The position numbers were made by a program, and so were the translations under genes. The notes beneath the pieces were generated by a model. The model saw only the letters and a list, made by a program, of their open reading frames with translations. It did no database searches and was not told the DNA's origin. A stretch of DNA of 64,000 nucleotides from positions 186,001 through 250,000 of the forward strand of contig JAJYDX010000001.1 of the NCBI GenBank assembly GCA_021777135.1. Reading direction: 5' to 3'. The stretch comes from a bacterium (GTDB lineage: Bacteria; SZUA-79; Acidulodesulfobacterales; Acidulodesulfobacteraceae). Below, piece after piece: positions 15,811 through 59,552 of the stretch. How positions within the stretch are numbered: position 1 is the stretch's first letter; each line of letters begins with the position of its first letter.

Positions 15811-16143
15811 CTAACCGTGACGATATCGGATTACGCGGACTTTTTCTGCGGTTATCATTCCCTCTTCGACGATTTCGTCCAGAAAAGGCATCAAGAGATT
15901 AAGTTTTTCTTCAGTATCAACAATTTCTATTATAACAGGGAGATCTTCGGACAGGCGCAATACTTTAGCCGTATGCATCCTGCTATGCGCTCCAAAGCCC
16001 ATAATGCCCCTGATAACGGTAGCCCCAGCAAGATTGAGTTCTCTAGCCTTTATAACAATTTGTTCATAAAGAGCTTTTCCTTTGTGGCTGTCGGATTCTC
16101 CTATAAATATTCTCAAAAGCATACCCTCTTCCGGAAGATTCAT
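15811..16143 (-). CDS. DUF190-domain protein
   Basis: 110 aa, a typical length for the family, with GEGMLLRIFIGESDSH-like start, GATVIRGIMGFGAHS and a beta strand DLPVIIEIVDTEEKLN: the PII-like ferredoxin fold of DUF190. The start overlaps the crcB stop by 4 nt, so the two are translationally coupled. DUF190 genes are commonly found beside crcB; the protein may be a regulatory or accessory partner of the fluoride channel. The stop is TAG, and the frame stays open beyond it. Confidence 0.85.
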   Translation of the reverse strand: MNLPEEGMLLRIFIGESDSHKGKALYEQIVIKARELNLAGATVIRGIMGFGAHSRMHTAKVLRLSEDLPVIIEIVDTEEKLNLLMPFLDEIVEEGMITAEKVRVIRYRHG

Positions 16144-16535
16144 CTAAGCGCCCCCTTAAAGTTTAGTATAAGAAATTTGGCTAATATAAAGCCTATAAAT
16201 ACTAATGCTATTCCAAGAATGTTAGAGGCAAGAATATTTATTAAGGCGGCTATATATTCCCCGTCCCGCATAAGGTTAAAACTCTCTAGCGCAAATGTCG
16301 AAAATGTCGTATATCCGCCTAAAACTCCTATAAAAATTGGCATCCTGATTGCGGGCGGTATGTTGGATTCCTCGAATAAACCCCATAGCAAGCCTATTAC
16401 AAATGCGCCTGACAGATTCACCACTAGTGTGCCTACAGGGAAAAAACTCTTCGAAAACCCGTAGTCAATACCCGCGACTAAATAGCGAAGAATTGTTCCA
16501 GCCGCTCCGCCTAAAGCAATTAATAATAGCTTCAA
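16140..16535 (-). CDS. crcB: Fluoride-specific ion channel CrcB/Fluc
   Basis: 131 aa, four membrane helices, the size of a Fluc monomer. Family motifs: GGAAGTILRYL at the N-terminus, GTLVVNLSGAFVIGLL (the N in the pore) and GVLGGYTTFSTFALE (the Phe box and Na+-site region). It exports fluoride across the inner membrane as a dual-topology dimer. The start is TTG, with only a weak GGGG upstream. It is coupled to the DUF190 gene. I found no fluoride riboswitch in the short leader. Confidence 0.93.
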   Translation of the reverse strand: MKLLLIALGGAAGTILRYLVAGIDYGFSKSFFPVGTLVVNLSGAFVIGLLWGLFEESNIPPAIRMPIFIGVLGGYTTFSTFALESFNLMRDGEYIAALINILASNILGIALVFIGFILAKFLILNFKGALR

Positions 16536-16789: not shown

Positions 16790-16850
16790 ATTAATATCAA
16801 TATGGAATGGGAAAATTGAATGCTTTAAATAAAACAAATATATTCTAATA

Positions 16851-16870
16851 AAGCACGATTGGGTGTTTTT
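16851..16870 (+). promoter_or_regulatory. nifH leader stem-loop P1 with hexaloop AUUGGG (ANTAR-type)
   Basis: AAGCACG (16851-16857) pairs with UGUUUUU (16864-16870), with one C-U mismatch and two G-U pairs. The enclosed six-base loop, AUUGGG, has A at position 1 and G at position 4, the conserved bases of ANTAR-bound hexaloops. The stem alone is weak; support comes from its position just before P2. Confidence 0.5.
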
Positions 16871-16883
16871 GGCAACGGCGCCA
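16870..16883 (+). promoter_or_regulatory. nifH leader stem-loop P2 with hexaloop AACGGC (ANTAR-type), overlapping the terminator
   Basis: UGGC (16870-16873) pairs with GCCA (16880-16883) around the six-base loop AACGGC: A1 and G4 again. The outer bases U67-U68 can pair with A85-A86 across a U-U mismatch. The loop end and 3' arm are also the 5' arm of the terminator (16878 onward), so the two structures exclude each other, as in known ANTAR antitermination leaders. Confidence 0.6.
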
Positions 16884-16933
16884 TAATTTAGAGGGATAAA
16901 TCTACCCCCTTAAATTATGGCGCTTTTTATTTT
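16878..16933 (+). terminator. Intrinsic-terminator hairpin in the nifH leader (attenuator)
   Basis: GCGCCATAATTTAGAGGG (16878-16895) pairs with CCCCCTTAAATTATGGCGC (16905-16923), about 17 bp with one small irregularity, followed by TTTTTATTTT. It lies between the sigma54 promoter and nifH, about 30 nt before the start codon. No gene on the plus strand lies upstream for it to terminate (crcB is on the other strand), so it must act on the nif transcript itself. Confidence 0.85.
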
Positions 16934-16941
16934 AAAAATAA

Positions 16942-17823
<882 letters not shown>

Positions 17824-17858: not shown

Positions 17859-18779
17859 ATGAATACAAAACTTTCTTCGATAGATTTTACGGCGGATTTA
17901 AGTGCGGGCATAGAAAAACATCCCTGTTTTAACAAAGAAGCCTCGAAACATTATGGTAGGGTTCATTTGCCGGTTGCCAAGTCCTGCAATATTTCCTGTA
18001 ACTACTGTCATAGGGATTACGACTGCCCGAATGAATCGAGACCGGGCGTAACATCGGGTCTGCTCTTGCCGGAAGACGCGGTAAACAGGATATACGAGGT
18101 AAAGAAGCTTTTTAAAGATATAAGCGTAGCTGCCGTTGCGGGTCCGGGAGACAGTTTAGCTGAACCGCTGAATACGATGAAGACATTCGAACTCGTTAAA
18201 AAAGAGTTTCCGGAGATTATACTTTGTATGAGTACTAACGGTCTTAATTTAAGGGAAAATCTTGAAGAACTCAGGGAAAAAGGGGTAAACTTCATAACCG
18301 TAACGCTTAATGCGACAGATGCGTCCATTGCCCGCAAAATATACAGATATGTTAATTATAACGGCATTGTTTATACGGAAAAGGATGCGGCGGAAATATT
18401 ATTGGATAAACAGATAAACGGCATAGAAAATGCAGTGAAAATGGGATTCACGATAAAAATTAATTCCGTTCTTATACCGGGTGTTAACGATTTTCATATA
18501 AAAGATATTTCGGATAAGGCAAAAAAACTTGGAGTATATCTATTTAACGTTATGCCTATGATTCCGGCCGAAGAGTCATACTTTTATAAAATGGGCGTAA
18601 GTGGAGCAAACAGAAAAGATGTTGCTAATATAATGAAGGGCATAAAAGGAATAAACATAATGGAGCATTGCAGACAGTGCCGCTCCGATGCCGCGGGACT
18701 TCTGGAAAATGATTTAAGTAAAGAGGTTAGCGAACGGGAGGAGAATTTAATATGCGAATTCAAAAAGATGCCGTATTAG
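17859..18779 (+). CDS. nifB: FeMo-co biosynthesis radical SAM protein NifB (short form)
   Basis: 306 aa. Builds the 8Fe-9S-C NifB-co precursor. It shows the NifB start EKHPCFNKEASKHYGR, the radical SAM cluster motif C43-x3-C47-x2-C50 in KSCNISCNYCHRDYDC followed by NESRPGVTS, VAGPGDSLAEP, and MEHCRQCRSDAAG near the end (additional cluster ligands). It lacks the C-terminal NifX-like domain of longer NifBs; a separate NifX is encoded at 25516. It overlaps the next gene by 28 nt. No clear Shine-Dalgarno precedes the ATG. Confidence 0.96.
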   Translation: MNTKLSSIDFTADLSAGIEKHPCFNKEASKHYGRVHLPVAKSCNISCNYCHRDYDCPNESRPGVTSGLLLPEDAVNRIYEVKKLFKDISVAAVAGPGDSLAEPLNTMKTFELVKKEFPEIILCMSTNGLNLRENLEELREKGVNFITVTLNATDASIARKIYRYVNYNGIVYTEKDAAEILLDKQINGIENAVKMGFTIKINSVLIPGVNDFHIKDISDKAKKLGVYLFNVMPMIPAEESYFYKMGVSGANRKDVANIMKGIKGINIMEHCRQCRSDAAGLLENDLSKEVSEREENLICEFKKMPY

Positions 18780-19525
18780 GATGTAAACTGTCTAAAAGCC
18801 TCAGTTTTTCGGAGGATGAAGAGCTTTATATCGCGACTAGCGATACTAAAATCAAAATGAAGGAAGACTATGCGCCCTTTGTGGATAAAATTTTAAACGA
18901 TATTTCTTATATTCCTAAAAGTATTTTAGATCTAGGGTGCGGTCCGGGTTATATCGCCAGAAGAATAACCGGAGTTCTGCCGAACGCTATGGTTTTCGGA
19001 GTTGATAAATCTGAAACGATGATAAATCACGCAAATAAAGTAATGGATAAAGCATTAAAAAGTAATTATGTTTTTCATTCGGAATTTGAAATTAACGGCA
19101 TGGCAATAGAAATGTTAGGAAAAGAACCCGATTATTTGAATTATTATGAACCTAGGCTTAAATATATTATTGCCGACAGCGCAAAACTTCCTTTCTGCAA
19201 TAATAAATTTGATTTAATTATACTGAAAGGAACGTTTAAATGTTTAGAAAATAAGCTGGATTCATTAAAAGAAATGTACAGGGTTTTGAGTCACGGCGGG
19301 GAAATTTTTATATACGAGTTCAGGAAAGATATTTCCGAGGATGAATTTGTCTGGCTTACAAAAAAAATGAACCCCCAAAAGGTAAAATCGCTAAGGCGCA
19401 AATTGAACTGTTCTTTAGATATGGAAGAATATAAAAAATATTTATTGGAAACAGGATTGACCGGATTTTCTAATATAGAAGCCGATGGACTCGATTTGAA
19501 AATAAGAATATATAAAAATTGTTAA
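18752..19525 (+). CDS. Class I SAM-dependent methyltransferase within the nif operon
   Basis: 257 aa. The SAM-binding motif I is SILDLGCGPGYIARRI; further Rossmann features are VFGVDKSETMINHA, KLPFCNNKFDLIIL and MYRVLSHGGEIFIYEFRK, like UbiE/BioC-type enzymes. It starts inside the end of nifB, with a strong GGGAGGAG 7 nt before its ATG, and precedes fdxB, so it is clearly part of the nif operon. I know of no required methyl transfer in nitrogenase assembly apart from the radical SAM step of NifB itself. The substrate is unknown; protein, cofactor or metabolite methylation are all possible. Confidence 0.88.
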   Translation: MRIQKDAVLGCKLSKSLSFSEDEELYIATSDTKIKMKEDYAPFVDKILNDISYIPKSILDLGCGPGYIARRITGVLPNAMVFGVDKSETMINHANKVMDKALKSNYVFHSEFEINGMAIEMLGKEPDYLNYYEPRLKYIIADSAKLPFCNNKFDLIILKGTFKCLENKLDSLKEMYRVLSHGGEIFIYEFRKDISEDEFVWLTKKMNPQKVKSLRRKLNCSLDMEEYKKYLLETGLTGFSNIEADGLDLKIRIYKNC

Positions 19526-19551
19526 TAATTTTTAATAAGGGGAAGATAATA

Positions 19552-19851
19552 ATGAGTATCATGGAAGGGTTTTCGGGCGAGATAGATAATTACGTCAATG
19601 CTCCGCGGCGTTCCGGAAAAAAATGGGTCCCACATTTTTTAATAGAATTCGACCATTTAAACTGCATATCTTGCGGCAGATGCATAAAGGTCTGTCCGGG
19701 CGGAGTATATATCTTCGAAGACGAAGGGGATAAGATGATAGTTAAAGTAGGCAGTTTGGATAACTGCATAGGCGATACCTGTTGCGAAAAGGTATGCCCT
19801 AAAAACAAGACGATGCATCTTCATAAATTTTCGCCGCTTACAAAAAATTAA
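19552..19851 (+). CDS. fdxB: Nif-specific 2[4Fe-4S] ferredoxin (FdxB/ferredoxin III-like)
   Basis: 99 aa from the ATG at 19552, chosen because AAGGGGAAG lies just upstream; the ORF track starts 11 codons earlier without a ribosome site. The first cluster motif is [14 protein letters not shown]; the second is [20 protein letters not shown], the irregular pattern of nif-associated ferredoxin III. It probably supplies electrons to NifB or another step of cofactor assembly. It sits between the methyltransferase and nifD. Confidence 0.9.
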
Positions 19852-25515: not shown

Positions 25516-25920
25516 ATGAAAGTAGGTTTTGCGACAAATGATAATATTTTAATCAATGACCACTTTGGATGGGCTAAAAATTTTGCAATATATGAAATCA
25601 ACATGGATGGATTTAAATTTTTGGAAAACAGGTATTTTGAAGAAGAACTCGAAGAGCTCAATAAGGTAGATAGAAAAATAGAAGGGTTGCGTGATTTAAA
25701 GATTGTTTTTGTAGAGAGCATAGGGGGCACGGCGGCCGCCCGCGTCGTAAAATCCGGCATCCATCCTGTCGTAAAAAAAGGGGACAGACTTAAGCCTGCT
25801 CCCGTGAAGATAGAAGAGGTTATGGAAGAACTTCAGGCGGTTTTATCGAAAAACCCTCCTCCGTGGCTGAAAAAGATTATTCTTAAAGAAGTCGGAGACA
25901 CTGCAGAAATAAATATTTAA
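25516..25920 (+). CDS. nifX: NifX-type dinitrogenase cofactor-binding protein
   Basis: 134 aa, the NifX/NifB-C-terminal fold: MKVGFATNDNILINDHFGWAKNFAIYEI, then LKIVFVESIGGTAAARVVKSGIHPVV. The tail is a NifX-like helical segment ending NPPPWLKKI, also typical. It binds and passes NifB-co or the VK-cluster during FeMo-co synthesis. AAGGAGG lies before the ATG. It is the last gene of the block before the second sigma54 promoter. Confidence 0.9.
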   Translation: MKVGFATNDNILINDHFGWAKNFAIYEINMDGFKFLENRYFEEELEELNKVDRKIEGLRDLKIVFVESIGGTAAARVVKSGIHPVVKKGDRLKPAPVKIEEVMEELQAVLSKNPPPWLKKIILKEVGDTAEINI

Positions 25921-25941
25921 TTTAAACTTAACAAATAGTTG

Positions 25942-25958
25942 TTGGCACAAACCTTGCA
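25942..25958 (+). promoter_or_regulatory. Sigma54 promoter for the ANTAR regulator-nifI1-nifI2 unit
   Basis: TTGGCACAAACCTTGCA is a full match to the sigma54 consensus, with GG-N10-GC spacing (25944-25945 and 25956-25957). The predicted start, near 25969, is 2 nt before the ATG at 25971, so the mRNA would be nearly leaderless. Confidence 0.9.
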
Positions 25959-25970
25959 TATTTATAAACT

Positions 25971-26576
25971 ATGGAAGAAGAGAAAGGTCTAAATTTAAAT
26001 ATAAAAGTTTTAGTCGTCGACGATTTAAAAGAAAGAAGGGATGAGCTTAAACTAATTTTAAATTCCGTTACTGCAAATATATATGAAGCAGACAATGGAG
26101 CGGCGGCAGTAGTAGCAGCTGAAGAATTTAAACCGGATATTATATTTATGGATATAAAGATGCCGTCGATGGACGGAATTACGGCCTGCAAAAAGATTAT
26201 GGAAAAAAATCCGGTTCCGGTTATTTTTTTAACCGCAGGGGCTGGCGATATAAAAGATTATGATGATTATATGGATGAATTGAAAGCTTCCGGGGCATTT
26301 TCTTATATAATGAAGCCTGCAAGAAAGAGCGAAGTTTTAGCACAAGCTATAATTGCTATAGAAAATTTCAAGAAATTTCAGGATATCAGAAAAGAGAATG
26401 AGAACTTAAAACATTATATAGAGGATAGGAAATTAATAGGCAAAGCAAAAAATATACTAATAAAAAATGAGGGTATTTCTGAAAAAGATGCACATAACAG
26501 ATTGCAAAAATTAAGCATGAACAGCGGACGACCTATAGGAGAAATAGCGAAAGCGATTATTTTAACTGATTCATAA
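25971..26576 (+). CDS. Receiver-ANTAR response regulator (putative RNA-binding antiterminator of the nif operon)
   Basis: 201 aa. Receiver domain (about 11-125): acidic pair D17-D18 in VVDDLKE, phospho-acceptor D61 in IIFMDIKMPSMDG, T88 and K115, so all the phosphorylation residues are there. A helical linker leads to a C-terminal ANTAR domain (about 146-200): DRKLIGKAKNILIKNEGISE, then AHNRLQKLSMNSGRPIGEIA. Proteins of this layout (EutV, Rv1626 type) bind paired RNA hexaloops and prevent termination. It has its own sigma54 promoter and lies between nifX and nifI1; the nifH leader carries a matching RNA motif. No sensor kinase gene is nearby. The domain calls are firm; the nifH target is inferred. 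Confidence 0.93.
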   Translation: MEEEKGLNLNIKVLVVDDLKERRDELKLILNSVTANIYEADNGAAAVVAAEEFKPDIIFMDIKMPSMDGITACKKIMEKNPVPVIFLTAGAGDIKDYDDYMDELKASGAFSYIMKPARKSEVLAQAIIAIENFKKFQDIRKENENLKHYIEDRKLIGKAKNILIKNEGISEKDAHNRLQKLSMNSGRPIGEIAKAIILTDS

Positions 26577-26953: not shown

Positions 26954-27361
26954 ATGGAATCAAAATTTGAAGAAAATGTCGTAGAGATTATTGCTGTGAT
27001 AAGAAGGCATAAGATTCAAGAAACAAAAGAAGCCTTAAGCAAAGAAGGTTTTGATCAGATGACTTTTTATTCGGTTCACGGAAGAGGAAGGCAAAAAGGC
27101 AGAGGGGGGCTTGCTAACGAACTAGACCCGGGATTAAATTTAATTAATAATAAAGCAGATATAGCGGATAACGACTATAGTTTTCTGCCTAAAAGAATGT
27201 TATCGCTGGCGGTAAAAGAAGACGATTTAAGTAAAGCAGTAAAAATTATAATAAAGGTGAACAAAACAGGTCATTACGGCGACGGAAAAATATTTGTTCT
27301 ACCCGTCAGACTTGTCGAGAGGATAAGGACGGCTGAAGAAGGTCTTTATGCGATAAGCTAA
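26954..27361 (+). CDS. nifI2: PII-family nitrogenase regulator NifI2
   Basis: 135 aa. It shows the PII core (VEIIAVIRRHKIQETKEAL, HGRGRQKGRGG, TGHYGDGKIFVLPV) with an enlarged T-loop and the RTAEEGLYAI ending typical of NifI2. It partners NifI1 in ammonium switch-off. It lies 32 bp after nifI1. Its stop overlaps the converging ogt gene by 4 bp, so the nif region ends here without a visible terminator. Confidence 0.93.
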   Translation: MESKFEENVVEIIAVIRRHKIQETKEALSKEGFDQMTFYSVHGRGRQKGRGGLANELDPGLNLINNKADIADNDYSFLPKRMLSLAVKEDDLSKAVKIIIKVNKTGHYGDGKIFVLPVRLVERIRTAEEGLYAIS

Positions 27362-59378: not shown

Positions 59379-59433
59379 ATTATTAAGTAAGTTTTATTAC
59401 AGTTATCTCATAATATACACAATAAATATAGTT

Positions 59434-59534
59434 CTTATCGAGAGCGGTAGAGGGACGGGCCCTATGAAACCGCAGCAACCGATTAAATTTTAAAGTCGGT
59501 GCTAATTCCCGCAGGTTTATTCCTGAAAGATAAG
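59434..59534 (+). ncRNA. SAM-I (S-box) riboswitch
   Basis: CTTATCGAGAGCGGTAGAGG, then GACGGGCCCTATGAAACCG-CAGCAACC, a variable P3/P4 region and the closing GATAAG, which pairs with CTTATC (P1). All the core S-box elements (kink-turn GAGAG, GGGCCC-TGA, GCAACC) are present. It binds S-adenosylmethionine and turns expression off when SAM is high. Confidence 0.96.
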
Positions 59535-59552
59535 AAGGATGAGTTTTCTTAG

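Follow-up and report, generated by a model that had tools for sequence, protein, structure and literature searches.

GnfR of Geobacter sulfurreducens is an ANTAR regulator which is reportedly induced by the master nif system and antiterminates nif transcripts. This protein (GSU2822) is said to work with the kinase GnfL, on target leaders which contain terminators. ANTAR-domain antitermination also operates on the nitrate-assimilation (nas) operons, through NasT/NasS and through NasR, the latter having a nitrate-sensing domain. The P-II family proteins NifI1 and NifI2 are known to regulate the activity of nitrogenase rather than the transcription of its genes. The gene name and locus of GnfR are given in PMC7962754, and ANTAR and nitrogen use in Geobacter are cited in PMC8164766. 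In Enterococcus faecalis, the receiver-ANTAR protein EutV (of the EutV/EutW pair) acts on a dual hexaloop RNA which overlaps a terminator, and it requires A1 and G4 in both loops (PMC3369931).

The locus described here lies in a 64-kb stretch of DNA, analysed as a whole and called the window below. Like Geobacter GnfR, it has a receiver-ANTAR protein in a nif system, under sigma54 or master nif control, which would antiterminate terminator-bearing nif leaders. It shares with EutV/EutW the type of protein and the dual hexaloop RNA overlapping a terminator, but the operon and the signal are different and the HisKA_2 type of kinase is absent. With NasT/NasS and NasR it shares the probable antitermination of nitrogen genes, whereas these systems respond to nitrate and have nas targets.

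The receiver-ANTAR gene and its promoter

The initial annotation placed the gene between nifX and nifI1. Indeed, nifX (25516-25920, TIGR02663 match above cut-off) precedes it, and the two P-II family genes downstream are consistent with nifI1 and nifI2. The features of this unit are the following:

25942-25958, + strand: sigma54 promoter (-24/-12) of the gnfR-nifI1-nifI2 unit, exact consensus; predicted start at about 25969, some 2 nt upstream of the ATG
25971-26576, + strand: gnfR-like gene, encoding a receiver (D17/D18, D61, T88, K115), a linker helix and an ANTAR RNA-binding domain, 201 amino acids
26604-26921, + strand: nifI1 (P-II family), Pfam P-II; gnfR-nifI1-nifI2 order conserved
26954-27361, + strand: nifI2 (P-II family), Pfam P-II; order conserved

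Pfam recognizes Response_reg in residues 13-124 of the protein (E 2.7e-22) and ANTAR (PF03861) in residues 144-197 (E 1.7e-16, 60.2 bits for a cut-off of 27.3). The residues D17, D18, D61, T88 and K115 are invariant in the alignment of 11 orthologs; the orthologs are 71-92% identical among themselves. The receiver, with its Response_reg match and these invariant residues, has an intact phosphorylation site, and the complete receiver (D61, T88, K115) followed by ANTAR that had been read from the sequence is thus confirmed. The closest solved chains are 6wsh (PDB), a receiver-ANTAR response regulator which is the nearest in sequence, and 1s8n, an antiterminator. Besides the gnfR-like gene, the genome contains no gene with an ANTAR domain. 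A later translation start is ruled out: the N-terminus MEDEKGLNLN is conserved, and the annotated ATG is therefore the likely start.

The perfect sigma54 sequence reported directly upstream is exact: it reads TTGGCACAAACCTTGCA, at 25942-25958. The span first annotated begins at 25941, 30 nt upstream of the ATG, because it includes this promoter. The exact motif TGGCAC-N5-TTGCW occurs at two sites in the 64-kb window, before nifH and before the gnfR-like gene, versus 0.01 expected from shuffling. A sigma54-type site precedes gnfR in all 15 orthologs examined. In 13 of them it stands at a nearly constant distance from the gene, which predicts a 5'UTR of 1-7 nt and no Shine-Dalgarno sequence; in the two others the site is farther upstream (predicted 5'UTR of about 52-61 nt). 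Since translation probably begins at the annotated ATG, the gnfR mRNA made from the sigma54 promoter is predicted to be nearly leaderless, a feature conserved in 13/15 orthologs. The position of the gene, in the nif region and behind a sigma54 promoter, is that of a GnfR-type regulator. The genome contains rpoN and 12 strong matches to sigma54 activators. The NifA-type upstream motif TGT-N10-ACA is no more frequent than expected by chance, and its sole occurrence near nifH runs into the core promoter; no NifA-type site separate from a core promoter was found.

The gap between the gnfR-like gene and nifI1 is 27 nt, and nifI1 is probably co-transcribed with it. The gene lies directly 5' of nifI1-nifI2 in every cluster compared. 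NifI1 and NifI2 are thus neighbours of the regulator, probably on the same transcript, although their known role, the control of activity, is different. No kinase gene adjoins the gnfR-like gene, in agreement with the initial annotation, and neither the window nor the related clusters showed a gene for the nitrate sensor NasS beside it.

Elsewhere in the window, the interval from nifV to nifH (15811-16535) contains a DUF190-like and a CrcB-like gene (labels given by eye), for which the related clusters compared showed no match at this place. Between nifB and nifD (18752-19851) there are genes for a methyltransferase and a 4Fe-4S ferredoxin, as in most related clusters, and a SAM riboswitch occupies 59432-59536 (96.5 bits).

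The nifH leader and its co-occurrence with the gene

The other exact sigma54 site of the window precedes a nifH leader of about 163 nt, which has two hexaloop hairpins, P1 and P2:

16774-16789, + strand: sigma54 promoter of nifH, exact consensus; predicted start at about 16800
16850-16869, + strand: P1, 7-bp hairpin with hexaloop GATTGG, from folding and from covariation in 15 genomes
16870-16883, + strand: P2 (antiterminator), hairpin UGGC[AACGGC]GCCA
16877-16933, + strand: intrinsic terminator upstream of nifH, with its stem at 16877-16924 and a U-rich tract behind it, from the minimum free energy structure
16963-17823, + strand: nifH (Pfam Fer4_NifH, E 1e-125), at the head of the nif operon that is predicted to be attenuated

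Part of the P2 loop and the 3' arm of P2 double as the 5' arm of the terminator, and the two structures are mutually exclusive in the predicted folds. The full-length leader folds as the terminator with P1 at -31.5 kcal/mol, versus -18.9 when P2 is forced, which makes the terminator better by 12.6. Transcripts ending just past P2 fold as P1 plus P2.

This layout is common to 15 nifH leaders, and the terminators could be aligned in 14. In the 15 genomes, 96.5% of the alignment cells are paired, four of 11 pairs show double-sided changes, and compensatory changes occur in the stems of both P1 and P2. The covariation score of P1/P2 was reached by none of 500 shuffles, and slid controls were at most 47% paired. 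In each of the 15 leaders, 5 nt separate the 3-bp core of P1 from that of P2.

The leader has the architecture of ANTAR dual-hexaloop targets: two short hairpins with 6-nt loops, a short linker, and an overlap between P2 and an intrinsic terminator. A terminator and an antiterminator before a nif structural gene, here nifH, also characterize GnfR-type control. The identity of the loops fits in part, as A1 and G4 are not present in both. The P2 loop has G4 in 15/15 leaders and A1 in 10, the five others having G at position 1. The P1 loop has A1 in 13/15, U4 in all and G4 in none. The A-x-x-G spacing is kept one position later in the P1 loop of 13/15 leaders. An Rfam scan of the nifH leader found no ANTAR family, and only sub-threshold matches to unrelated families.

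The comparison set consists of 30 genomes of the phylum, all from one family. A covariance model of P1-P2 matches the window at 16847-16888 (56.6 bits, E 1.4e-18) and finds exactly one strong site (48-69 bits) in each of 15 of the 30 genomes, always before nifH. Four secondary matches (20-23 bits) were checked as extra targets and rejected, all being inside coding frames. The nifH leader is thus the sole credible target found by this search for the ANTAR protein.

The co-occurrence of the gene with the nifH-leader terminator, which had been proposed as a check, is observed: 13 genomes have both gnfR and the leader element, six have neither, and none has only one. In two further genomes the element is present and the contig ends before the gnfR position. 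The six genomes with neither belong to one sister genus (g2) and all have nifH; in the four of them whose clusters were compared, nifI1 comes immediately after nifX. The association (Fisher p = 3.7e-5) has to be read with the fact that the six negatives are one genus: the evolutionary events are therefore fewer than the genomes, and these negatives may reflect a single event. Since both are present in 13 genomes and both absent from six, the gene and the element appear, from this comparison, to be one module. Genome G005, which seemed to have the gene but not the element, was rejected as an exception: gnfR is missing from its own nif cluster, and the copy assigned to it is on a stray contig resembling genus g1. 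This 3.1-kb contig (L260, G005:C145) carries nifX-gnfR-nifI1-nifI2 and is probably mis-binned.

Proposed circuit and alternatives

The gnfR-like gene is highly likely to encode a GnfR-type antiterminator dedicated to nifH and co-induced with it via sigma54. The feed-forward circuit of the initial annotation, with the nifH leader as the target of the ANTAR protein, is very probably right: gene and element co-occur, a covarying antiterminator overlaps the terminator, no other credible target was found, and the genome has no second ANTAR gene. The gene, both promoters, the structures of the leader and their mutual exclusion, the co-occurrence and the single target are established by sequence and comparison.

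With respect to binding, phosphorylation, the identity of the activator and the signal, we infer the following scheme. When nitrogen is short, a sigma54 activator would turn on the promoters before nifH and before gnfR-nifI1-nifI2. By default, the nifH transcript would stop at the strong leader terminator. Activated GnfR, probably a phosphorylated dimer, would bind P1 and P2 while they emerge from RNA polymerase. With P2 held closed, the 5' arm of the terminator could not pair, so that the polymerase would continue into nifH and the downstream nif genes. As sigma54 would drive the two promoters and active GnfR the read-through, both sigma54 activation and the GnfR signal would be needed for full nif expression, in a coherent feed-forward loop of the AND type. 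Some points weigh against a GnfR-type reading: the P1 loop has U4 in place of G4 throughout, position 1 of P2 is G in a third of the leaders, the negatives are all one genus, the EutW/PdtaS type of kinase is absent, and no NifA-type site stands apart from the core promoter.

The initial annotation suggested a search for an orphan kinase of the EutW/PdtaS type. It was negative: no HisKA_2 (PF07568) kinase is present in the genome, which is estimated to be 100% complete. This donor is thus ruled out, provided that the assembly is complete. The genome has 18 HATPase_c matches; among the 16 examined, 14 have HisKA, one has HisKA_3 and one has no recognised phospho-acceptor domain. Several of these kinases are not beside a response regulator, and a kinase of the HisKA type, unlinked to gnfR, is the most likely phospho-donor. 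L137 and L139, two PAS-HisKA kinases that are similar to each other and look NtrB-like by eye, are candidates by that likeness only.

GnfR might also antiterminate nifH without being phosphorylated, gated by NifI1/NifI2 or by another partner, the receiver being a docking domain. NasS, which holds NasT, is a precedent for partner gating. The lack of an adjacent kinase and of any HisKA_2 kinase, and the position of gnfR immediately before nifI1-nifI2, speak for this explanation. However, a pure docking domain would not need the phosphorylation residues, which are all invariant, and the 14 HisKA kinases and the HisKA_3 kinase remain candidates. Gating of this kind is unlikely, though not negligible. 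A more specific proposal, which we consider distinctly improbable, is that of a self-contained module, one gene and one RNA site held or lacked as a unit, which would read the U4 loop of P1 and be gated by the co-transcribed NifI1/NifI2 and not by a kinase. If gating by NifI1/NifI2 were true, one sigma54 operon would couple the transcription and the activity of nitrogenase to the same 2-oxoglutarate signal.

Hairpins that resemble terminators can fulfil other functions when they precede nif genes, and the nifH-leader terminator could be a plain attenuator or an element of mRNA processing or stability, with the ANTAR protein acting elsewhere. This is very unlikely: the two hairpins covary separately and keep a fixed spacing, the element is missing wherever the ANTAR gene is missing, and the search gave the protein no other credible target. 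The idea of a degenerate gene, or of one present in the nif cluster by accident, for which the sole argument is the absence of a kinase next door, is already contradicted by the conservation of the sequence, with its invariant receiver residues, of the promoter and of the gene position, and can practically be dismissed.

Relation to Geobacter GnfR and significance

The circuit logic is already known from Geobacter GnfR and is not new. Four genomes, called Geobacter-like on account of their gene order and relation, have nifV-gnfR-nifH or gnfR-nifH adjacent, and in all four GGC[AAAGGC]GCC and a terminator lie upstream of nifH. The likely P1 loops of their leaders are ACTGAA and GCCGAA (two sequence types), with the usual G4. 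The window protein is 35-39% identical to their nif-linked ANTAR proteins. In one of these genomes (locus L247, G433), two P2-like hairpin/terminator units stand in tandem upstream of nifH. The nearest named ANTAR matches (L061 and L062) were rejected as nif-linked: they are kinase-ANTAR pairs with no nif genes nearby. Of 20 further ANTAR regions in the phylum to which G031 belongs, just one is near nifH.

The system described here is a variant in its gene position, single target, U4 loop, leaderless start and missing HisKA_2 kinase. The gene follows nifX and precedes nifI1-nifI2, whereas Geobacter gnfR lies between nifV and nifH. In contrast to Geobacter GnfR, there is one RNA target per genome, the gnfR mRNA is predicted to have almost no leader, and no kinase is assigned. 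The P1 loop has U4 where Geobacter-like leaders have G4, and the P1 and P2 stems, 5 nt apart between their 3-bp cores, are much closer than in those leaders.

Ca. Acidulodesulfobacterales have been published as nif-bearing (PMC6776010), and this, together with the gene content, tentatively suggests that the window comes from that group. The present comparison carries GnfR-style regulation of nitrogen fixation from Geobacter into a lineage that is separate at the phylum level; its 30 genomes, all of one family, seem to be those of diazotrophs from acid mine drainage. Some sister genera have the module of gene and leader and others lack it, which makes the pairing of protein and RNA directly testable. 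The finding also bears on the tolerance of ANTAR proteins to changes at loop positions thought to be essential.
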